Shown here one piece after another: positions 4,350 to 29,779 of a stretch of 64,000 nt of DNA. Made by a program: the position numbers and the translations under genes. The stretch is from Massilia sp. METH4. GTDB taxonomy: Bacteria; Pseudomonadota; Gammaproteobacteria; Burkholderiales; Burkholderiaceae_D. The notes under the pieces were generated by a model that was not told the DNA's origin, ran no database searches, and saw only the letters and a program-made list of their open reading frames with translations. How positions within the stretch are numbered: the first letter of the stretch is position 1; each line of letters begins with the position of its first letter. The DNA lies in assembly GCF_037094685.1 (NCBI RefSeq), contig NZ_CP146614.1, positions 1,364,001 through 1,428,000 of the forward strand, in the 5' to 3' direction.

Positions 4350-5378
4350 ATGAGCAAATCCCCTTCTACCAAGAGCCGCGCCAGCGGAAGAGTCACGCTG
4401 AGCGACGTGGCGGCCCGCGCCGGCGTGGCGCCGATGACGGCATCGCGCGCGATCAACCAGCCCGACCTCGTGTCGTCGCTGCTGCGCCAGCGCGTGGAGC
4501 AGGCGGTGCAGGAACTCGGCTACGTGCCGAACCGCGCCGCCCGCGCCCTCGCCTCCGCCCAATCGAATGTCATCGTGGTGCTCGTGCCCTCGCTGTCGAA
4601 CACCGTGTTCACCGCAGTCCTTCAGGGGATCCAGGATGCGCTGGACGACGACAATTACCAGCTCCTGATCGGCAACACCCGCTATTCCGATGCCGAGGAA
4701 GAAAAGCTGCTGAACGTGTACATGCAGTCGAATCCGGACGGCATCCTGCTCTCCGGCCTCACCCACAGCACCCGCGTGCAGCAGATGCTGGAAACGTCGC
4801 GCGTGCCGGTGGTGTCGATGATGGACCTGTCGGCCGACCCGGAGACGCTGTGCGTCGGCTTCTCGCAAGTGGAAGCAGGTCAGGCGATGACGCGCTACCT
4901 GATCGGCAAGGGCAAGAAGCGCATCGGCTTCATCGGCGCCCAGCTCGACGAGCGCACGCTGCGCCGCGCCGAGGGCTACCGCAAGGCGATGGCGGACGCC
5001 GGCCTGGCCGACCCGCGCCTGGAACTGATGGTGCCCGATCCTTCCACCATCGCGCTGGGCGCCGAACTGCTGGGCCGCATGCTGGCCCAGGTGCCCGATT
5101 GCGACGCGATCTTCTGCTGCAACGACGACCTGGCGCATGGCGCCATCTACCAGTGCCAGCGCCGCGGCATTTCGGTACCGGAGCAGCTGGCCATCTGCGG
5201 CTTCAACGACCTGCCGGCCTCGGCGTGGATGAAGCCCGCGCTGACGACGGTCGGCACGCCGCGCTACAAGATCGGCTACGAGGCCGCCACGATGCTGCGC
5301 GCCGCCATCCGGGGCGAGCGGCCCGCGCAGCCGCACCTGGATCTCGGGTTCACGCTGATGGCGCGCGAAAGCGCTTGA
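4350..5378 (+). CDS. gntR: LacI-family repressor, GntR-like (gluconate/cellobionate regulator)
   Basis: A 342-residue LacI-family regulator. The helix-turn-helix spans about residues 16-40 (VTLSDVAARAGVAPMTASRA), followed by the hinge helix NRAARALAS that inserts into the minor groove. A periplasmic-binding-protein-like effector domain covers about 60-340 (VIVVLVPSLSNTVFTAVLQG; DAIFCCNDDLAHGA; LAICGFNDLPAS). It resembles the GntR/IdnR branch that binds gluconate-type effectors. It lies just upstream of gluconokinase, and a 14-bp LacI-type palindrome (TGTTAGCGCTATCA) recurs at 5529 and 10137. It most likely represses both the kinase and the transporter/phosphorylase operon. Confidence 0.82.
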   Translation: MSKSPSTKSRASGRVTLSDVAARAGVAPMTASRAINQPDLVSSLLRQRVEQAVQELGYVPNRAARALASAQSNVIVVLVPSLSNTVFTAVLQGIQDALDDDNYQLLIGNTRYSDAEEEKLLNVYMQSNPDGILLSGLTHSTRVQQMLETSRVPVVSMMDLSADPETLCVGFSQVEAGQAMTRYLIGKGKKRIGFIGAQLDERTLRRAEGYRKAMADAGLADPRLELMVPDPSTIALGAELLGRMLAQVPDCDAIFCCNDDLAHGAIYQCQRRGISVPEQLAICGFNDLPASAWMKPALTTVGTPRYKIGYEAATMLRAAIRGERPAQPHLDLGFTLMARESA

Positions 5379-5402
5379 GTGTGAAATCGTTGCCTAAAAA
5401 AG

Positions 5403-5480
5403 TTGCTCCAAAAATGGGGACGTACCCCATTTTCCCGGAAAGGTTGCCCTGAAAATGGGGTACGTCCCCATTTTTCGGGC
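5403..5480. repeat. REP-like inverted pair of palindromes
   Basis: Two 23-bp arms, at 5411-5433 and 5452-5474, are exact reverse complements separated by 18 bp. Each arm is itself nearly palindromic: AAAATGGGG, a 5-bp centre, then CCCCATTTT. Homology extends a few bases outward on both sides (TTGC-y-C on one side, a GG-rich end on the other). The arrangement resembles a BIME/REP doublet. It fills the gap between gntR and the gluconokinase promoter and could also fold as a bidirectional terminator. Confidence 0.75.
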
Positions 5481-5490
5481 AATGGTTGCC

Positions 5491-5519
5491 TTGAAATAGG
5501 CCACTTCGTGCAGTAGAAT
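5491..5519 (+). promoter_or_regulatory. Promoter of gluconokinase gene
   Basis: TTGAAA (5491-5496), a 17-bp spacer and TAGAAT (5514-5519) form a good sigma-70 promoter. The predicted start point near 5526 places the LacI-type operator at 5529 directly downstream of +1, where a bound repressor would block initiation. Confidence 0.65.
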
Positions 5520-5528
5520 GAAAAATTG

Positions 5529-5542
5529 TGTTAGCGCTATCA
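5529..5542. promoter_or_regulatory. LacI-type operator (GntR site 1)
   Basis: TGTTAGCGCTATCA is a near-perfect dyad around the CpG centre typical of LacI-family operators. It sits between the promoter and the ATG of gluconokinase. Exactly the same 14 bp, inverted, occur at 10137-10150. Confidence 0.75.
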
Positions 5543-5551
5543 GAGGGCGAG

Positions 5552-6058
5552 ATGACTAAACAGGATGCCCCGCGCTGGGTGGTAATGGGCGTGGCCGGAT
5601 GCGGCAAGAGTTCCGTGGGAGCGGCGCTGGCCGAGCGGCTCGGTGTGCGCTACGTGGAGGGCGACCGCTACCACTCGCCGGAAAACGTGGCCAAGATGAG
5701 CGCCGGCGTGCCGCTGACCGATGGCGACCGCCTGCACTGGCTGGCCAGCCTGCAGGGCGAAATCCGCGATGCTGCGCAGCGCGGCGAAGGAATCGTGGTG
5801 GGCTGTTCTGCCTTGAAGCGCCGCTATCGCGACCTGCTGCGTGAAGGCGTGCCGAACCTGCGCTTCGCCCACCTGGCGGGCTCGCGCGACCTGATCGCCG
5901 AGCGCATGGCCGCGCGTACGGGCCACTACATGCCGCTGTCGCTGCTGGACAGCCAGTTCGCCACGCTCGAACCGCTGCAGCCGGACGAAGCGGGCATCAC
6001 GCTCGATATCCGCGAAGACGTGGCCGCCCTGGTCGACCACATCACGACAGCCGGCTGA
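5552..6058 (+). CDS. gntK: Gluconokinase
   Basis: A 168-residue P-loop kinase of the shikimate-kinase fold, full length for GntK (about 170-175 residues). It phosphorylates D-gluconate to 6-phosphogluconate with ATP, feeding the Entner-Doudoroff and pentose-phosphate routes in the cytoplasm. The Walker A loop is GVAGCGKSSVG. YVEGDRYHSPENVAKMSAGVP is the substrate-binding region, and CSALKRRYRDLLRE and GHYMPLSLLDSQF are family hallmarks. The ATG at 5552 follows GAGGGCGAG. An upstream GTG at 5528 lies inside the operator and was rejected. The gene converges on the GH94 gene, leaving 20 bp between stops. Confidence 0.92.
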   Translation: MTKQDAPRWVVMGVAGCGKSSVGAALAERLGVRYVEGDRYHSPENVAKMSAGVPLTDGDRLHWLASLQGEIRDAAQRGEGIVVGCSALKRRYRDLLREGVPNLRFAHLAGSRDLIAERMAARTGHYMPLSLLDSQFATLEPLQPDEAGITLDIREDVAALVDHITTAG

Positions 6059-6078
6059 TCACGCCGGCCGCCGTGCCG

Positions 6079-8448
6079 TCATGCGGCAGGCACGGTCACC
6101 TCCAGCCGGTACGTGCGGCCGGCCTCGATGCCGGTCACGCGCGCTTCAGGCAACAGCTCGCCATCGCGGCGCACCTGGATCGCCGGCACGTCGCCACGCC
6201 GGATCGACACCTCGAAGGTCGCGCCGCGGAACGCGCGCACAGCCTTCATGCCTTGCCAGCTTGCCGGCAGCTGCGGCGCCACGCGCAGGCCTTCCGCATC
6301 GCCGACCAGGCCGCACAGGCCCTCGATCACGCTGCGATAGATCCACGACACCGTGCCCGTATTGAACAGGTGGCTCGACCGCCCCGCCGTGCGCGGATAC
6401 TCGCGCCACGCGCCGCGGTAGTAGTTCGGGATGAACACGGGCAGCTGGCCGCGCCGCAGGTAATCCGCCTCGTCCGGGCCGGGAATCATCCTGCGCATCA
6501 GGTCCCAGGCCCGTTCGCCGTCGGCGCCGTCATACAGGCTGTAGATGTAGAACGCGGCCGCGTGGTTGTACACGGCGCCGTTCTCCGCCGAGCCGGGATG
6601 CTTCTGGGTGACGCGGCCCACGTCCTCGCGCATCTTCGAGAACGGCGGCGCGAACATCTGCACGCCGTATGGCGTGTGCAGTTGCTGTTCCACCTCATGA
6701 ATCATCGAGGCGCGCTGCTCCGCGCTGGCCGCGCCGGACAGCATCGACCATGCCTGCGGGTTGAGCCAGATGCGCCCTTCCCTGTCGTCGGCCACGCCGA
6801 ATACCACGCCGTCGTCGGTGATGCCGCGCGCGAACCAGCGGCCATCCCACAGGTGTGCATTGGCCGCGTCGTTCAGCGCCTGTGCGCCGGCGCGGAAGTG
6901 CCGGGCACCTTCCTCGTCCTTGTGCTGCGCGCACATCTCCGCCCACAGCTTGAGCGCATACGCGGCGGCGACGGTCAGCCAGCCTGACACGCCCTTGCCC
7001 TTGTAGCCCACCATGTTCATCGGATCGCACCAGTCGCCCTGGGCGATGTAGGACAGGCCCCGCTCGTCGCGCTCCTTCAGCAGCCAGTCCATGGCCCGGC
7101 CGATGCGCTGCGCCACGGTGAGGCCATGGCCATCGCGGTCGAACACCAGTTCGTCGAGCAGCGCCCAATCCGCCGTCTCGTCCAGGTAGGCCTTCAGGCA
7201 CACGGGCAGCCACACGCAGTGGTCGGTGTGCGGCACCTGGTTGATGTACTTCAGCTCCGCGCCTTCGACGAGCAGGATCCCGTCCGGCATCGCGCCCGTC
7301 GGTTCCTGCTGCGACAGCGCATGCAGGAAGGCGCCGCGCGCCGTGGGCGGGTGCACGAAGCTCATGCCCATATTGTCCTGCAGGTAGTTGCGCGTCTGCG
7401 GGTCGGTCGTGAGGCGGTTCGAGCCGCCGTGGTAATACACCTGGCGCGGCAGCCAGTGGTTGATGAAGTTGTCGAATTCCGGGTCCGGCGTTTCCACCTT
7501 CACGCAGCCGGCGCCGGCGCCGATGTAGGCGGCATACGCCTCGCGGGCACGGGCAAACCCGGCGGCGGACAGGTAACGCTCGCGCAGCGCGGCGATCTCG
7601 GCGTCGTCGAACGCGGGTCCGAACAGGAAGCGGTACTCCTCGCTGCCGTCGCCCGGCAGCGCGAGCCGGTACTGCACGGCGGCCACCGGCGTTTCATAGC
7701 GCGCGTCGCCGCCCGCGAGCGTTTCCGCCCGCAGCGCGGATGGCGCATGCAGCCCGCCCTCGCCCTCGAACGCCTCCTGGGCCGCCTCCCATGCATCGGG
7801 GGCGCGCTCGCACAGGAAAAAGGTCTTGTCCTTGAAGTCCTTCTGCTTGAAGTAGTCGGCCACCTTCTGGTACGGCGCCACGCACGAAGCCACGATGCCC
7901 TGCAGGTCGGCGCGGTACTCGGCCGACTGGTTCATCCAGCTCATGTAGCCGATCGTGAAGTACGGCACCACCGACAGCCGGCGCGGCCGGCCGGACAGGT
8001 TGGTGACCTTCAGCGACCACAGCTCGGCCACGTCGTCCACCGGCAGGCCGAGCGCCAGCTCGATGCGGATGCCGAGCGCCTCGACCGTCCATGCCATATC
8101 GCTTTTTCCGGCCGAGAATTCGTAGCGGTCGGGCGCGGCGCGCACCGGTTCGTAGGGCGCGGAGAACAGCTCGCCCGTTTCCTCGTCCTTCACGTAGAAG
8201 AAGCGGCCCGGGTGGTGCGCGTAGTAGCCCTGCTCCGGCTGCATGAAGGTCTTCGCTTCCAGGTTCGGCGCATACGAATACTTGGCCGGTTCCGGCTGCA
8301 TGAACTGCGCGACCGCATAGCCGCGGCAGTTCACCTGGATCATCATCTTGCGGTTCCACAGGAAGCCGGCCGAGCGCGGCATGGCGGTGGGGGACAACAG
8401 TTCATAACGCTGGCCGTCAGCGGACGGGCGCAGGGTCGGGGAGTGCAT
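6079..8448 (-). CDS. GH94 glycoside phosphorylase, probable cellobionic acid phosphorylase
   Basis: A 789-residue GH94 enzyme: N-terminal beta-sandwich (about 1-270), linker helices, (alpha/alpha)6 barrel (about 320-710) and C-terminal beta domain. GH94 enzymes break beta-glucosides with inorganic phosphate, giving alpha-glucose-1-phosphate. The general-acid motif reads [12 protein letters not shown], with D472 at the catalytic position. The chain length and the W-C-D-P-M-N variant differ from cellobiose phosphorylases as I remember them. Neighbouring gluconokinase and a gluconate-type repressor point to cellobionate, yielding glucose-1-phosphate plus gluconate. That substrate is inferred from context; cellobiose or another glucoside remains possible. 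Translation starts inside the transporter gene (32-bp overlap), so the two are coupled. The ATG at 8448 is preceded by GGAG. Confidence 0.85.
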
Positions 8449-9832
8449 CGGGTTCGTCTCCGGAGTTGCGAATTTCAGGCTCGGCCGGCTTGCGCGCGGC
8501 GAGGTCGGACTGGATGGTGCGCAAGGTGGCGGCATCGAGGCGGTAGCAGCACATCACCCCCACCGCCAGCAGCGCGAAGGCGGCGGGGATCAGCGACATC
8601 AACCACACGATGCCGGCCGTGGAATCCGGGCTTTGCGCGGCGTTCGGCACGTAGCCCAGCGCGGTGAACAGCGCGCCGATGACGGCAACCGCCAGCGCCG
8701 TGCCGAGCTTTTGCGAGAACGTGGCGGCGGCGAACGTCATGGCCGTGGCGCGCCGGCCGGTGCGCCATTCGTTGTAGTCGGCCGTGTCGGCATACATGGA
8801 GAAGGCCAGCGGCGACTTCGGCCCCAGCACGAGGCCCAGGCAAGCCTGCAGGACGAACATCAGCCATACCTGGTCCTTTGGTACGAAGAAGTAGACGGCC
8901 GACAGCACGGCCGTGGCGCTCATCAGGATGATCATCAGCTTCTTCTTGTCGACGAAGCGCGTCATCAGCGGCGAGAGGGCGGCACCGACGGCGGCCGCGA
9001 ACATGTACACGGAAACGAAGGTGCCCATCAGCTCCGGCTGCCCGACCACGTACTTGAAGTAATACGCCGCCGTGGTGGTGCGCAGCGTGATCGTGACCAT
9101 GATGATCAGCGCCAGGAAGAACAGCACCACCCACGGGCCGTTGCGCGACAGGTCTTTCACGTCCTGCATCACATTGGTCTGTTGCTGCGGCGGCGGGGCG
9201 ATGCGCTCGCGCGTATTGAAGAAGGTGATCAGGAACATCACGCCGGCCGCCACCGCCCAGGCGGCCATCGTCAGCTGCCAGCCCCGCTCGTCATTGCCGT
9301 TGCCGAACGCCTTCACCATCGCCGGGGTGGCCGCCGTGACGAGCATGCTGCCGCCGAAGGCGCAGATGAAGCGCAGGCCGTTGATGGTGGAGCGTTCCTG
9401 CGGGTCGGCCGACATCACGCCGGAGAGCGCGTTGTACGGGATGTTGATCGCGGTGTAGCACACCATCATCAGCAGGTAAGTGCCATACGCCCATGCCAGG
9501 CGCGCATCGCCTTCCAGGTCGGGCGTGGTGTAGGTGAGCACGGCGGCGCAGCCCAGCGGCACGGCTACCCACACGAGGTAGGGGCGGAACTTGCCGTAGC
9601 GGGTCGTGGTGCGGTCGGCCACCGCGCCGATCATGGGATCGGTAAAGGCGTTGATCAGCTTGATGGCGAACATCATCGACGCGGCCGCGGCGGCCGAGAT
9701 GCCGAACACGTCGGTGTAGAAGATCAGGAGGAAGGTGGCGACATTGGTCCAATAGAAATTGAACCCCATGTCCGCGATGCCATAGCTGATTTTTTCGCGC
9801 CAGGACAGCCGGGTGCTCGGATGCTTGTTCAT
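8417..9832 (-). CDS. GPH-type sugar:cation symporter (MelB/XynP superfamily)
   Basis: A 471-residue transporter with about 12 membrane segments. It shows glycoside-pentoside-hexuronide family hallmarks: [20 protein letters not shown] in helix 1, then [29 protein letters not shown], where the Asp and Arg residues serve cation and sugar binding. [17 protein letters not shown] is also typical of this family. It would bring a disaccharide or sugar acid into the cytoplasm for the downstream phosphorylase, whose gene overlaps its 3' end. The upstream leader contains two operators, a short ORF and two terminator-like hairpins. The start codon itself has only a weak ribosome-binding site. Confidence 0.88.
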
Positions 9833-9860
9833 TCAGGAGCCCGCGCCTGGGAATTGGAGG

Positions 9861-9897
9861 AAAAAAACTGCGCGGGCGGAACCAATTGCCCACCCGC
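9861..9897 (-). terminator. Terminator-like hairpin just before the transporter start
   Basis: On the minus strand GCGGGTGG pairs with CCGCCCGC (one G-U) around a 10-nt loop, followed 4 nt later by seven T. It lies only about 30 bp before the transporter ATG, inside the leader, so it can act only on the operon's own leader transcript or on read-through of the hairpin at 9902-9932. Confidence 0.5.
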
Positions 9898-9901
9898 ACA
9901 G

Positions 9902-9945
9902 AAAAAACAGACCGGGAAAGTGTAACCCGGTCCGCCCATCGGACC
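9902..9945 (-). terminator. Attenuator-like terminator with competing hairpin
   Basis: On the minus strand GACCGGG (9932-9926) pairs with CCCGGTC (9916-9910) and is followed by TG and six T: a canonical terminator. A preceding GGTCC (9945-9941) can instead pair with GGACC (9933-9929), which overlaps the terminator's first arm. The two structures are mutually exclusive, as in transcription attenuators. The stop codon of the short ORF lies 6 bp upstream of the first arm. Confidence 0.5.
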
Positions 9946-9950
9946 TTTCT

Positions 9951-10022
9951 TCATGCTGCCCCTGGCGCGCGCGGCGCGGCGGCCGCAGCGGTGGTGTTGG
10001 CGGGTGGCTTGTTGTGCAGCAT
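9951..10022 (-). CDS. 23-residue leader peptide or small protein
   Basis: The ATG at 10022 is preceded by AGGAGGAG at ideal spacing, one of the strongest ribosome-binding sites in the window. The peptide starts MLHNKPPANTT and is otherwise Ala/Pro-rich, ending APGAA. It has no membrane segment. Its stop is followed directly by the competing hairpins at 9945-9902 and lies upstream of the transporter start. It could be an attenuation leader peptide for the transporter/phosphorylase operon or an independent small protein with its own terminator. The ribosome-binding site argues it is translated; the function is unknown. Confidence 0.5.
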   Translation of the reverse strand: MLHNKPPANTTAAAAAPRAPGAA

Positions 10023-10070
10023 GGTCGTCTCCTCCTGCAACTCGCTGCGCGTGCCTCTCGTGGGCATCGC

Positions 10071-10084
10071 TGGCAGCGCTAACA
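10071..10084. promoter_or_regulatory. LacI-type operator (GntR site 2, imperfect)
   Basis: TGGCAGCGCTAACA keeps the AGCGCT core and the right half-site of the sites at 5529 and 10137, with two changes in the left half. It is 66 bp from site 3, a spacing compatible with looping by a tetrameric or cooperative LacI protein. It lies at the 5' end of the expected transporter leader. Confidence 0.55.
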
Positions 10085-10136
10085 AAATTTTTTACTGTTC
10101 AACGCGCTTGTTTTTCGATGATTTCTCGTACTGCTC

Positions 10137-10150
10137 TGATAGCGCTAACA
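10137..10150. promoter_or_regulatory. LacI-type operator (GntR site 3)
   Basis: TGATAGCGCTAACA is the exact reverse complement of the operator in front of gluconokinase. It lies in the intergenic region upstream of the transporter/GH94 operon and links that operon to the same repressor. Confidence 0.72.
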
Positions 10151-10251
10151 GATGCAATCAGTGTAATCACGAGTTTTTGCGAAGTCAACAACTTCATGGG
10201 GGGCCGCCCGATTGCGGCCGCCACACTTTGACAAACTTTTTTCGATCTAAA

Positions 10252-10266
10252 TGAGTATCATTCTCA
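10252..10266. promoter_or_regulatory. Fur box upstream of the FepA-type receptor
   Basis: TGAGTATCATTCTCA closely matches the 7-1-7 Fur consensus (TGAGAATGATTCTCA type). A TTGACA at 10228-10233 lies just upstream and may be the -35 box, although no well-spaced -10 was found. Iron-bound Fur would repress the receptor gene, whose ATG is at 10340. Confidence 0.68.
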
Positions 10267-10339
10267 ATTGCAAGCGGCCGGGATACCGCTCATCGTTCAC
10301 GTTCGGCGGCCGTCAAAGACACAACAACAGGATCGAAAG

Positions 10340-12541
10340 ATGAATCACACTCTGCAACGCACCCCGCTCGCCGCCGCCCTGTGCCTGGCGTTCCTCTCCC
10401 CCGCCGCCCTTGCCCAGGTTGCCCCCGAACAGCGACTGGCCGAAGTGCAGGTCACCGCCACCGCCGAGGAGGAACTGAAGCAGGCGCCCGGCGTGTCGAC
10501 GATCACCGCCGTCGACATCGAGGCGCGCCCACCCGCCAACGACCTGTCGGAAATCATCCGCACGATGCCGGGCGTGAACCTCACGGGCAACAGCTCCACG
10601 GGCCAGTACGGCAACAACCGCCAGATCGACCTGCGCGGCATGGGCCCGGAGAACACCCTGATCCTGGTCGACGGTAAACCCGTCATGTCGCGCAACTCCG
10701 TGCGGATGGGCCGCAGCGGCGAACGCAATGCGCGCGGCGACACGAACTGGGTGCCGGCCGAGCTGGTCGAGCGCATCGAGGTGCTGCGCGGCCCGGCCGC
10801 GGCGCGCTACGGCTCGGGTGCCGCCGGTGGCGTCGTGAACATCATCACGAAGAAGCCGGGCAACAAACTGTCCGGCTCCGTGACGGCCTATGCGCTGGCG
10901 CCGGAGCACGGCGAGGAAAGCGCGACGAAGCGCCTGGGCTTCAACCTGTCCGGCCCGCTCGCCGGCCAGTTCTCGTTCCGCCTGTTCGGCAACGTGAACA
11001 AGACCGATGCGGACGGCCTGTCGATCAACGCCACGCCGGAAAACACGGCCGCCGGCGCGATCCCGCCCGCCGGACGCGAAGGCGTGCGCAATCGCGACGT
11101 GGGCGGCCTGCTGCGCTGGGACCTGGCACCGGGCCAGGTGCTGGAGCTGGAATCGGCCTTCTCGCGCCAGGGCAATATCTACGCGGGCGACCGCGCGGTA
11201 AACGCCACCGGCACGCCGCTGCTGGGCGAACTGGCCAATGCCGGCGCGGAAACGAACGTGATGATCCGCCGCACCGCGTCGCTGACGCATCGCGGCAAGT
11301 GGGACTTCGGCACCTCGAAGCTCTCCGTGCAATTCGAGAACACGGACAATACGCGCCTGAACGAGGGCCTGGCCGGCGGGCCGGAAGGCAGCATCTCGAA
11401 TGCCACGTCGTGGTCCACGTCCGAGCTGGAGAACTACGTCGTCAACGGTGAAGTCAATATGCCGGGCAAGCTGTTCGGCCGCTCGCAGATGCTTACCGTG
11501 GGCTTCGACCTGCGCAAGGAAAAGCTCGACGACCCGTACTCGATGACGCAGACGGCAACCGCGATTCCCGGCCTGGCCGTCACGAACCGCGATGGCAAGG
11601 CCGATGCGGAAACGTATGCCGTGTACGTGGAAGACAATATCGGCGTAACGAACGAGTTGATGCTGACGCCCGGTGTGCGCTTCGACAAGCACAGCCAGTT
11701 CGGCAGCAACTGGAGCCCGAGCCTGAACGCCTCCTACAGCCTGACGCCGACCGTCACCCTGAAAGGCGGCATCGCCCGCGCCTTCAAGGCGCCAAACCTG
11801 TACCAGTCGAACCCGAACTACCTGTACTACACGCGCGGCAACGGCTGCCCCGTCAACAACCCGAACCTGGGCGGCGGCTGCTACCTGCGCGGCAACGACA
11901 ACCTGGCAGCGGAAACATCGGTCAACAAGGAAATCGGCATCGGCTGGAGCGATGCGGGCTACAGCGCCAGCGCCACGTACTTCCATAACGATTACCGCAA
12001 CAAGATCGTGGGCGGCATGGACACGCTGCTGGGCAACACCTCGGCCAACGGCCGCCTGTTCCAGTGGGAGAACGCGCCGAAGGCCGTGGTGCAGGGTATC
12101 GAGGGCAACCTGACGATCCCGTTCGGTACCGGCGTGAAGTTCATCAACAACCTCACCTACATGATCGAGAACGAGAACAAGACCACGGGCGAGCCGCTGT
12201 CCGTGATTCCCGAGTTCACGCTGAACACCTCGCTCGACTGGCAGGTGAACGACAAGGTATCGCTGCTGTTCACCGGCACCTGGTATGGCAAGCAGGAGCC
12301 GCGCCGCCTGACCACGCAGGGCGCGCCGGCCACCGGGGACGCGCTGAACACGCTCGATCCTTACAGCGTGTGGGGCGTGAGCGCCGGCTATGCGTTCACT
12401 AGAAATGTGCGCCTGCGCGCCGGCATCAACAATCTGTTCGACGAGCGCCTGTTCCGCGAGAGCACCGGCTCCAGCGCGGGTGCGGCCACCTACAACGAGG
12501 CGGGGCGCTCGCTGTTCGTCAGCCTCACGTCGTCGTTCTGA
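10340..12541 (+). CDS. fepA: FepA/PfeA-family TonB-dependent catecholate siderophore receptor
   Basis: A 733-residue outer-membrane receptor with a signal peptide (cleavage near ALAQ, residue 24) and a TonB box region (LAEVQVTA). The plug domain spans about 45-165 and a 22-strand barrel ends in Phe (SLFVSLTSSF). The plug carries the FepA hallmark block: RNSVRMGRSGERNARGDTNW, then VERIEVLRGPAAARYGSGAA. The barrel contains NDNLAAETSVNKEIG, also typical of FepA/PfeA. The expected substrate is ferric enterobactin or a related catecholate, with energy from TonB-ExbBD, which are not in this window. The Fur box upstream and the iron-linked membrane genes downstream agree. Confidence 0.9.
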   Translation: MNHTLQRTPLAAALCLAFLSPAALAQVAPEQRLAEVQVTATAEEELKQAPGVSTITAVDIEARPPANDLSEIIRTMPGVNLTGNSSTGQYGNNRQIDLRGMGPENTLILVDGKPVMSRNSVRMGRSGERNARGDTNWVPAELVERIEVLRGPAAARYGSGAAGGVVNIITKKPGNKLSGSVTAYALAPEHGEESATKRLGFNLSGPLAGQFSFRLFGNVNKTDADGLSINATPENTAAGAIPPAGREGVRNRDVGGLLRWDLAPGQVLELESAFSRQGNIYAGDRAVNATGTPLLGELANAGAETNVMIRRTASLTHRGKWDFGTSKLSVQFENTDNTRLNEGLAGGPEGSISNATSWSTSELENYVVNGEVNMPGKLFGRSQMLTVGFDLRKEKLDDPYSMTQTATAIPGLAVTNRDGKADAETYAVYVEDNIGVTNELMLTPGVRFDKHSQFGSNWSPSLNASYSLTPTVTLKGGIARAFKAPNLYQSNPNYLYYTRGNGCPVNNPNLGGGCYLRGNDNLAAETSVNKEIGIGWSDAGYSASATYFHNDYRNKIVGGMDTLLGNTSANGRLFQWENAPKAVVQGIEGNLTIPFGTGVKFINNLTYMIENENKTTGEPLSVIPEFTLNTSLDWQVNDKVSLLFTGTWYGKQEPRRLTTQGAPATGDALNTLDPYSVWGVSAGYAFTRNVRLRAGINNLFDERLFRESTGSSAGAATYNEAGRSLFVSLTSSF

Positions 12542-28799: not shown

Positions 28800-29779
28800 A
28801 CCACGCCGATCTGCCGCCGCATCTCGTCCAGCACGCCCATCAAGGCGAGCGTTTCGTCGAGCGGCATCACGGGGCTTTCCGTCAGTCCCTCGCGCAGGCA
28901 GCGGTTCACTTCGATGATCTCGTGGGCATAGCCGTTGCCGATGCGTGGAATGCGCTGCGCGCGGCGGCTGCCGTCGCTCAGTTCCACCGTTAATTCTTCC
29001 GTGTTGTTGAAGCGGCCGTGCAGGCGCACGAACCCCTTGCTGCCGTAGACGGTGAATTCCACGGGCGTACGCACGGCCAGGCTGGACGTGCACGACGCCA
29101 GGGCGCCATTCTCGTGTTGCAGTGCAAACGCGCATTGCACGTCCACGCCGGTCGGGCCCAGCTGGCCGACCGCCTGGACCGCCTTGACGGGGCCGAGGAA
29201 ATACGCGGCGATCGACAATGGATAGATGCCCAGGTCCAGCAGCGACCCACCGCCGAGAGCCGGGTTGAACAGCCGGTGCTCCGGTTCCACGTCGGCATGA
29301 AAGCCGAAGTCACCCTGTACGGCGGCGACCGTGCCGATCTCGCCGCTGGCCGCGACGCGCTTCGCTTCGAGCACGGCAGGGTGGAAGCGCGTCCACATCG
29401 CCTCCATCACGAACAGTTTCTTCGCGCGTGCCAGCGTCACGACTTCTTCCGCCTCGCGGCGGTTGACCGTGAACGCCTTTTCGACCAGCACGTGCTTGCC
29501 TCCTTCCAGGCACATCAGCGCATTGTCGCGGTGCATCGGATGCGGCGTGGCGATGTAAATCGCGTCGACATCGGGATCGTCGGCCAGCGCCTGGTAGCTG
29601 CCGTGGCTTTTCGTCAACTCATGCGAACCGTGTTCGGTGGCGAACGCGGTAGCGCTATCAACACTCCTCGACGCAACGGCCGCGAGCACGGCGTCGGGCG
29701 TATCCTTCAGCGCGGCGGCGAAGGCCGTGGCGATCTTGCCGGTGCCGAGGATGCCCCAGCGGATGGTCCGTACTGTCAT
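28781..29779 (-). CDS. Gfo/Idh/MocA-family NAD(P)-dependent oxidoreductase
   Basis: A 332-residue dehydrogenase of the glucose-fructose oxidoreductase / inositol dehydrogenase type. The N-terminal Rossmann domain has IRWGILGTGKIATAFAAAL, and DAIYIATPHPMHRDNALMCL carries the nucleotide-pocket pattern. HVLVEKAFTVNRREAEE contains the conserved E-K-P-like motif, here E-K-A. The C-terminal alpha/beta domain holds GSLLDLGIYPLSIAAYFLG with the catalytic-site Asp and Tyr. The substrate is an unknown sugar, polyol or trans-dihydrodiol. It overlaps DUF3025 by ATGA and probably follows pyrC in one operon. Confidence 0.85.
   Translation of the reverse strand: MTVRTIRWGILGTGKIATAFAAALKDTPDAVLAAVASRSVDSATAFATEHGSHELTKSHGSYQALADDPDVDAIYIATPHPMHRDNALMCLEGGKHVLVEKAFTVNRREAEEVVTLARAKKLFVMEAMWTRFHPAVLEAKRVAASGEIGTVAAVQGDFGFHADVEPEHRLFNPALGGGSLLDLGIYPLSIAAYFLGPVKAVQAVGQLGPTGVDVQCAFALQHENGALASCTSSLAVRTPVEFTVYGSKGFVRLHGRFNNTEELTVELSDGSRRAQRIPRIGNGYAHEIIEVNRCLREGLTESPVMPLDETLALMGVLDEMRRQIGVVYDADR

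Follow-up and report, generated by a model that had tools for sequence, protein, structure and literature searches.

A probable cellobionate-utilisation locus with a putative common GntR-type operator in Massilia sp. METH4

Oxidised cellulose fragments represent a carbon source whose uptake by bacteria is little known. In this study we analysed a stretch of 64,000 nucleotides from Massilia sp. METH4 (contig NZ_CP146614.1, positions 1,364,001 to 1,428,000 of the forward strand; hereafter the window, with positions counted from its first letter), in which a GntR-type repressor, a gluconokinase, a symporter of the GPH family and a phosphorylase of family GH94 lie next to each other. Our analyses support the identification of the phosphorylase as a cellobionic acid phosphorylase (CBAP; EC 2.4.1.321), an enzyme of an already known kind, and point to a putative operator in front of both transcription units of the locus, which is very probably a cellobionate-utilisation unit. 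Furthermore, we describe a conserved leader element preceding the transporter gene, for which a regulatory role is proposed tentatively.

Gene content of the locus and identity of the GH94 enzyme

The four genes which the first-pass annotation had placed between 4350 and 10150 are all present at those positions, as open reading frames (ORFs) recognised by family profiles (Table 1). Their arrangement is convergent, the pair formed by gntR and gntK facing the transporter-CBAP unit, in which the transporter gene overlaps the GH94 start by 32 nt. The regulator scored 542.9 bits against the profile NF052440 ('HTH-type transcriptional regulator GntR', cut-off 400), being the sole protein above the cut-off among the 18 matches found in the genome. 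Similarly, gntK (195.2 bits, cut-off 113.75) and the transporter (390.2 bits, cut-off 231.35) exceeded the thresholds of the gluconokinase and GPH symporter profiles TIGR01313 and TIGR00792, respectively, and the phosphorylase carries the catalytic and supersandwich domains of GH94, PF17167 (198.9 bits, residues 316-713) and PF06165 (95.0 bits, residues 77-277).

Table 1. Features of the locus and of a second gluconate locus (positions in the window, unless marked as genome positions)
Feature	Position	Strand	Details
gntR, LacI-family repressor of Pseudomonas GntR type	4350-5378	+	342 aa; NF052440
Open frame of gntK, opening at GTG 5528	5528-6058	+	
gntK, gluconokinase	5552-6058 (preferred ATG 5552)	+	168 aa; TIGR01313
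GH94 protein, cellobionic acid phosphorylase (CBAP)	8448-6079	-	789 aa; sequence comparison
GPH-family symporter, predicted cellobionate importer	9832-8417	-	471 aa; TIGR00792
Putative GntR-type operator TGTTAGCGCTATCA, directly upstream of gluconokinase	5529-5542	+	exact
Putative GntR-type operator TGTTAGCGCTATCA, 9 nt behind -10 hexamer of transporter-CBAP promoter	10137-10150	-	exact
Weaker second operator-like site TGTTAGCGCTGCCA	10071-10084	-	2 mismatches
Sigma-70-like promoter TTGACT-17-TACACT of transporter-CBAP unit	10160-10188	-	9/12 matches; 1 found, 0.2 expected
Leader element, composed of the small hairpin GUCC-GAU-GGGC plus two terminator-like hairpins in tandem, both with a T run behind them	9861-9945	-	
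Possible leader peptide ORF MLHNKPPANTTAAAAAPRAPGAA behind GGAGGAG	9951-10022	-	stop 7 nt before TCCGATGGGC
Second gluconate locus (L029)	genome 4624500-4637000		gluconokinase 2, TonB receptor and GntP permease behind two operators
Gluconokinase 2	genome 4630018-4630485		TIGR01313, 188.4 bits
Putative operators upstream of gluconokinase 2	genome 4630566, 4630703		<=1 mismatch

The GH94 protein was compared with the sequences of solved structures and matched 4ZLE with 1251.7 bits over query residues 10-788, the entry given in a review table as the Saccharophagus degradans cellobionic acid phosphorylase Sde_0906 (PMC8950772). The next-best solved protein was a chitobiose phosphorylase (183.6 bits), the cellobiose phosphorylases scored 126-136.4 bits, and a gap of the same kind was found for the catalytic half of the protein alone (681.3 bits for the best match versus 137.4 for the next). 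In the S. degradans enzyme (SdCBAP), the residues R609 and K613, together with Q190 of the partner subunit, are what we take to be the site of carboxylate recognition. The alignment to 4ZLE places Q194, R612 and K616 of the Massilia protein at these positions, and their equivalents are kept in 80/80 of the relatives described below. In contrast, the two other strong GH94 matches of the same genome (L002 and L003, located in 1276- and 1290-codon open frames), which may be of the cyclic-glucan-synthase type, carry A/Y/Y at the carboxylate positions, as does a second GH94 protein in the related locus L098, and a partial GH94 protein cut by the end of locus L093 has Y/Y at the last two of them.

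The motif GDWCDPMN, with an aspartate at residue 472, is present as the first-pass annotation had stated, together with the platform tryptophan W473 and a further aspartate, D475. The choice of D472 as the relevant residue has to be corrected, given that the platform tryptophan and the general acid lie two residues apart both in cellodextrin phosphorylase (Trp622 and Asp624; PMC5667895) and in LpSOGP (W758 and D760; PMC5309861); because W473 and D475 show this same spacing, the general acid should by analogy be D475.

Activities on cellobiose, chitobiose and beta-1,2-glucan exist within GH94 among proteins with Pfam domains in common, and the enzyme might thus act mainly on one of these substrates, with the gluconate genes as chance neighbours. 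We consider this extremely improbable in view of the wide gap in score that separates the protein from other GH94 enzymes of solved structure, the Q/R/K site that all relatives keep and the GH94 paralogues examined lack, and the identical operator standing in front of the gluconokinase and of the CBAP unit.

Conserved neighbourhood and a putative common operator

Relatives of the CBAP were studied in the best 80 of 519 stretches encoding one, derived from isolates and metagenome-assembled genomes (MAGs), some of which end at contig ends, and a neighbouring gene was counted when tblastn gave it 80 bits or more. The transporter was found in 77/80 of these loci, a GntR-like regulator in 68/80, gluconokinase in 51/80 and all four genes in 49/80, an association that exceeds chance. 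Moreover, in 68/80 the transporter lies on the same strand as CBAP and ends at most 400 nt from its start. The regulator of locus L045, the sole relative's regulator so examined, obtained an NCBIfam match of 530.8 bits. In this locus, from a Rugamonas MAG, and in L064, from Massilia, the gene order is gntR, gntK, TonB receptor, GPH, CBAP, GH3; a protein related to the GH3 member of L045 follows in 21/80 loci, and beta-glucosidase is therefore not dispensed with by all these bacteria.

A scan of the window for the operator with up to three mismatches returned eight matches at four places, a palindromic site scoring on both strands and being counted twice; the mean after shuffling was 2.85, and 0/100 shuffles reached eight. 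Besides the sites of Table 1, the fourth place is 29647-29660, and none of the four is situated upstream of gntR. In the 6.88-Mb genome, nine places carry the operator with at most one mismatch, four of them in the two gluconate loci; when up to two mismatches were allowed, the two strands gave 29 + 30 matches, versus 9 + 10 for the backwards pattern.

Four variants of the palindrome (TGWTAGCGCTAWCA) were then scored across the 80 related loci, comprising 1.67 Mb. Sites matching exactly numbered 43, those with one mismatch 51 and those with two 55, whereas the reversed patterns gave 0, 0 and 6, respectively. Upstream of gntK (n=51), 22 regions hold an exact variant, 16 a site with one mismatch, nine a site with two, and four none; the corresponding figures are 19, 10, 11 and 37 for the transporter (n=77) and 0, 27, 12 and 29 for gntR (n=68). 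The regions upstream of CBAP, usually intra-operon, hold none in 79 of 80 cases, the single exact variant belonging to locus L046, where the transporter was not found. The AGCGCT core of TGTTAGCGCTATCA is common to the published, footprinted GntR sites of Pseudomonas, given as AG-N2-AGCGCT-N-TCT for P. plecoglossicida (PMC12195362) and as AC-N-AAG-N-TAGCGCT for P. aeruginosa, with gluconate and 6-phosphogluconate as effectors (PMC5902321). Taken as sequence evidence, these results support the membership of the gluconokinase and the transporter-CBAP unit in one regulon, tied together by one putative operator. The proposal of the first-pass annotation that the GH94 enzyme is a cellobionic acid phosphorylase is thus supported by the score gap, the carboxylate residues, the conserved neighbourhood and the common operator.

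The second gluconate locus contains a GntP permease (TIGR00791, 457.0 bits, cut-off 292.75) and a TonB receptor of 1046 aa encoded at genome 4626770-4629910 (PF00593, 99.8 bits), for which no NCBIfam family scored above its cut-off. Related receptors, with 60-71 % identity to this one, are encoded in 11/80 CBAP loci. In nine of these 11, eight from Roseateles/Pelomonas and one from a Burkholderiales MAG, the receptor gene is divergent from gntR beside CBAP, with GATAGCGCTATC upstream of it in 6/9, and in two Massilia loci (L068 and L072) it lies between gntK and GntP. We regard this type of receptor as a candidate for the outer-membrane uptake of gluconate or aldobionic acids. The genome also holds a GntP permease and a further gluconokinase, and SdCBAP is reported to use glucuronate as an acceptor, which would also suit a CBAP acting mainly on another beta-glucosyl acid (e.g. 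glucosyl-glucuronate), the gluconokinase serving for free gluconate only. However, both the clustering of the genes and the presence of the same operator before gluconokinase imply gluconate as the product, and this alternative appears very unlikely to us.

With respect to adjacent sequences, palindromes were noticed by eye at two places between gntR and gntK (5395-5475), around GGGGACGTACCCC and GGGGTACGTCCCC; they are possibly repeats or terminators. The FepA-type TonB receptor next to the transporter (10340-12541) was rejected as a member of the system, as it matches the siderophore-receptor profile NF010048 with 1062.5 bits (cut-off 493); it was matched in 1/80 related loci. A Fur-box-like AATGAGTATCATTCTCAATT, also recognised by eye, precedes this receptor at 10250-10269, and a PepSY-type protein follows it.

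A conserved leader element before the transporter

Between the operator and the start codon of the transporter lies a leader element made up of a small hairpin and two tandem terminator-like hairpins. The pattern scan listed only the second of these on the reverse strand; the first, whose 9-nt loop is beyond the limits of the scan, was recognised by eye and on folding. Within the genome the element occurs once, the sole full match being itself and the others extending over 14-19 nt, and its interpretation as a repeat was consequently rejected. No Rfam family matched above its threshold, the only hit being L20_leader with 17.7 bits versus 58.7.

The distribution of the leader was surveyed in 60 genomes, 35 of which encode the transporter at E <= 1e-150, and 30 loci were obtained; the leader is present in 8/30 of the transporter upstream regions examined. 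Nine leaders picked by the word GTCCGATGGGC formed the alignment A1, the basis of a covariance model that detected the leader in 11/74 same-genus genomes, with one copy each and always before this transporter. Eight of these 11 genomes had supplied A1, the leader of L183 is identical in its letters to that of L044 in A1, and those of L181 and L168 are new. Among 145 family genomes it was found in two, both included in the 11 (the searches of the 74 genus and 145 family genomes used stricter filters, with which weak matches are lost), and among the 80 CBAP loci in three, plus one weak antisense match in L044.

In 11/11 cases the distance from the leader to the transporter is 98-145 nt, with an exact operator variant upstream of the leader. 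The weaker second operator-like site recurs in 6/11 and the promoter pattern in 10/11 of these genomes; the stretch scanned in the remaining one, L177, was too short, and the promoter was seen in L136, from the same genome. Within the leader, GTCCGATGGGC is invariant and 98.0 % of the cells of the 11 aligned sequences pair. Seven pairs are changed on both sides, a number reached by 2/500 shuffles, and 19 cells are changed on both sides versus a shuffled mean of 7.5, with 0/500 shuffles reaching it and slid controls giving at most five, a comparison in which the structure, derived from the same 11 sequences, is favoured over the slid controls. Further pair types did not exceed the shuffles (270/500), and with A1 alone 46/500 shuffles had as many pairs with both sides altered as the alignment itself. 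The terminator-like hairpins between promoter and start codon are therefore conserved with compensatory changes in both stems, the 5' mini-hairpin is invariant, and no conserved alternative fold was demonstrated.

A short ORF behind a GGAG motif, ending 3-9 nt before TCCGATGGGC, is present in 6/11 leader-bearing genomes and missing from 5/11, which weakens the candidacy of a leader peptide as an essential switch. On the evidence of its conserved structure, we tentatively put forward the leader as a possible transcription attenuator. A more specific scheme for the Pseudoduganella clade, which we regard as doubtful, would combine GntR at the operator with a subsequent, so far undescribed attenuator RNA composed of two tandem terminators behind the invariant GUCCGAUGGGC mini-hairpin, with a leader peptide ending just before the mini-hairpin in part of the clade and a TonB receptor behind like operators importing aldonic or aldobionic acids; under this scheme the operon leader could alternatively, or in addition, give rise to a small RNA.

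Conversely, the tandem hairpins could be ordinary terminators or RNA-stabilising hairpins devoid of a regulatory role, a view to which we give slightly better than an even chance. It agrees with the restriction of the leader to one clade, 22/30 transporter upstream regions being without it, with the presence of the ORF in only part of the genomes, and with the fold of the single leader, which is not unusually stable (z -1.21, 26/200 shuffles as stable). The position of the leader between operator and start codon in 11/11 genomes, the invariant GTCCGATGGGC and the compensatory changes in both stems speak in favour of a regulatory element such as the attenuator proposed above.

Proposed cellobionate pathway and comparison with known systems

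In our view, the locus very probably serves the utilisation of cellobionate and is controlled by a repressor that responds to gluconate. Directly observed at the locus are the gene families, the conserved residues, the conserved neighbourhood and the common operator sequence, from which we infer the substrates, the effector and the induction. Cellobionate would enter the cytoplasm through the GPH symporter, a substrate assigned from the context of the gene, and CBAP, judging from its family and residues, would phosphorolyse it to glucose 1-phosphate and gluconate, the latter being presumably converted by gluconokinase into 6-phosphogluconate, as expected from its family. Bound to identical operators, GntR would keep both gntK and the transporter-CBAP unit repressed until, in analogy to its Pseudomonas counterpart, it is released by gluconate or 6-phosphogluconate; the pathway would therefore induce itself. 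The second locus with like operators would handle free gluconate and possibly entry through the outer membrane.

As to the origin of cellobionate, a link to the cell's own lytic polysaccharide monooxygenases (LPMOs) was not supported, and this source was rejected on a search of the genome for AA10 (PF03067), the sole LPMO family searched, which returned no match, the same search being positive in 1/14 control genomes. The genome encodes a membrane PQQ (pyrroloquinoline quinone) dehydrogenase, which scored 954 bits (cut-off 832.65), as well as a single GH9 protein with 297.8 bits (cut-off 27.7), and their presence suggests other sources. Membrane PQQ dehydrogenases of such type may oxidise cellobiose, and cellobionate may be formed when the cell itself oxidises this sugar or be supplied by other organisms.

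Several observations weigh against the reading of the locus as a cellobionate unit controlled by GntR. Five of the nine best genomic operator places adjoin other genes; given the many LacI-type regulators in the genome, represented by the 18 matches mentioned above, other regulators may read similar sites. In the related loci, no operator-like site at up to two mismatches was detected in 37/77 transporter and 29/68 gntR upstream regions, some of the transporters concerned perhaps sitting within a longer operon, and no match within the stretch was obtained for a GntR-like regulator in 12/80 loci and for gluconokinase in 29/80. The assignment of the transporter rests on context, because GPH symporters carry many glycosides, and the roles ascribed to the carboxylate-site residues are those reported in the structure study of SdCBAP.

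The five other operator-like palindromes of the genome lie at 4287195, 524612, 3670361, 5696109 and 6515525. Near them are found genes for a DUF5597 protein weakly similar to GH35/GH42, a GH1 protein, a pectinesterase with a TonB receptor and another TonB receptor, as well as unassigned genes, and these sites are probably read by other LacI-type regulators.

The enzyme and the pathway are thus of a known kind. An operator linking both units and a conserved tandem-hairpin leader are the parts for which no description was met in the literature searched, a search outside which the original CBAP papers lie, where a description of the gene cluster is possible; nor did it return a paper joining Massilia and cellobionic. 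The operator and neighbourhood data define a testable regulon in many genomes and yield candidates for both the inner-membrane importer and the outer-membrane receptor. Besides that, the leader element offers a small system on which the attenuation of a sugar-acid operon could be tested.

With the S. degradans CBAP, the one aligned among the listed CBAPs (the others being X. campestris XCC4077 and N. crassa NCU09425), the Massilia protein has in common an alignment over query residues 10-788, the catalytic motif and the carboxylate-site residues, and no difference bearing on the reaction was found between them. By its named relatives, taken from the 80 loci and from the 120 proteins listed among 2489 that passed a search, the host falls into the Pseudoduganella/Massilia group. 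The pathway of Neurospora crassa, formed by CBT-1, CAP and gluconokinase, is described as proceeding through the same steps of import, phosphorolysis and gluconate phosphorylation (PMC4537572), whereas the Massilia locus has a bacterial GPH symporter and its genes are clustered behind like operators. According to the same source, yeast consumes cellobionate when given import, CBAP and gluconokinase together (PMC4537572). Bacterial growth on cellobionate is also described for the AscB route of Escherichia coli, for which a phospho-beta-glucosidase is proposed and the importer is stated to be unidentified (PMC4403981); in contrast, the Massilia locus contains a phosphorylase and a candidate importer. 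The Pseudomonas GntR regulon (gntR, gntK/gnuK and gntP) resembles the present system in its regulator, which is above the NCBI cut-off in Massilia, and in the operator core AGCGCT, although the reach of the putative Massilia regulon would extend to the cellobionate transporter, the phosphorylase and, at the second locus, a TonB receptor. Carbohydrate utilisation loci with TonB receptors occur in Gram-negative bacteria, and likewise a TonB receptor adjoins gluconate or CBAP genes in L029 and in 11/80 related loci, with the difference that the candidate substrate here would be gluconate or an aldobionic acid.

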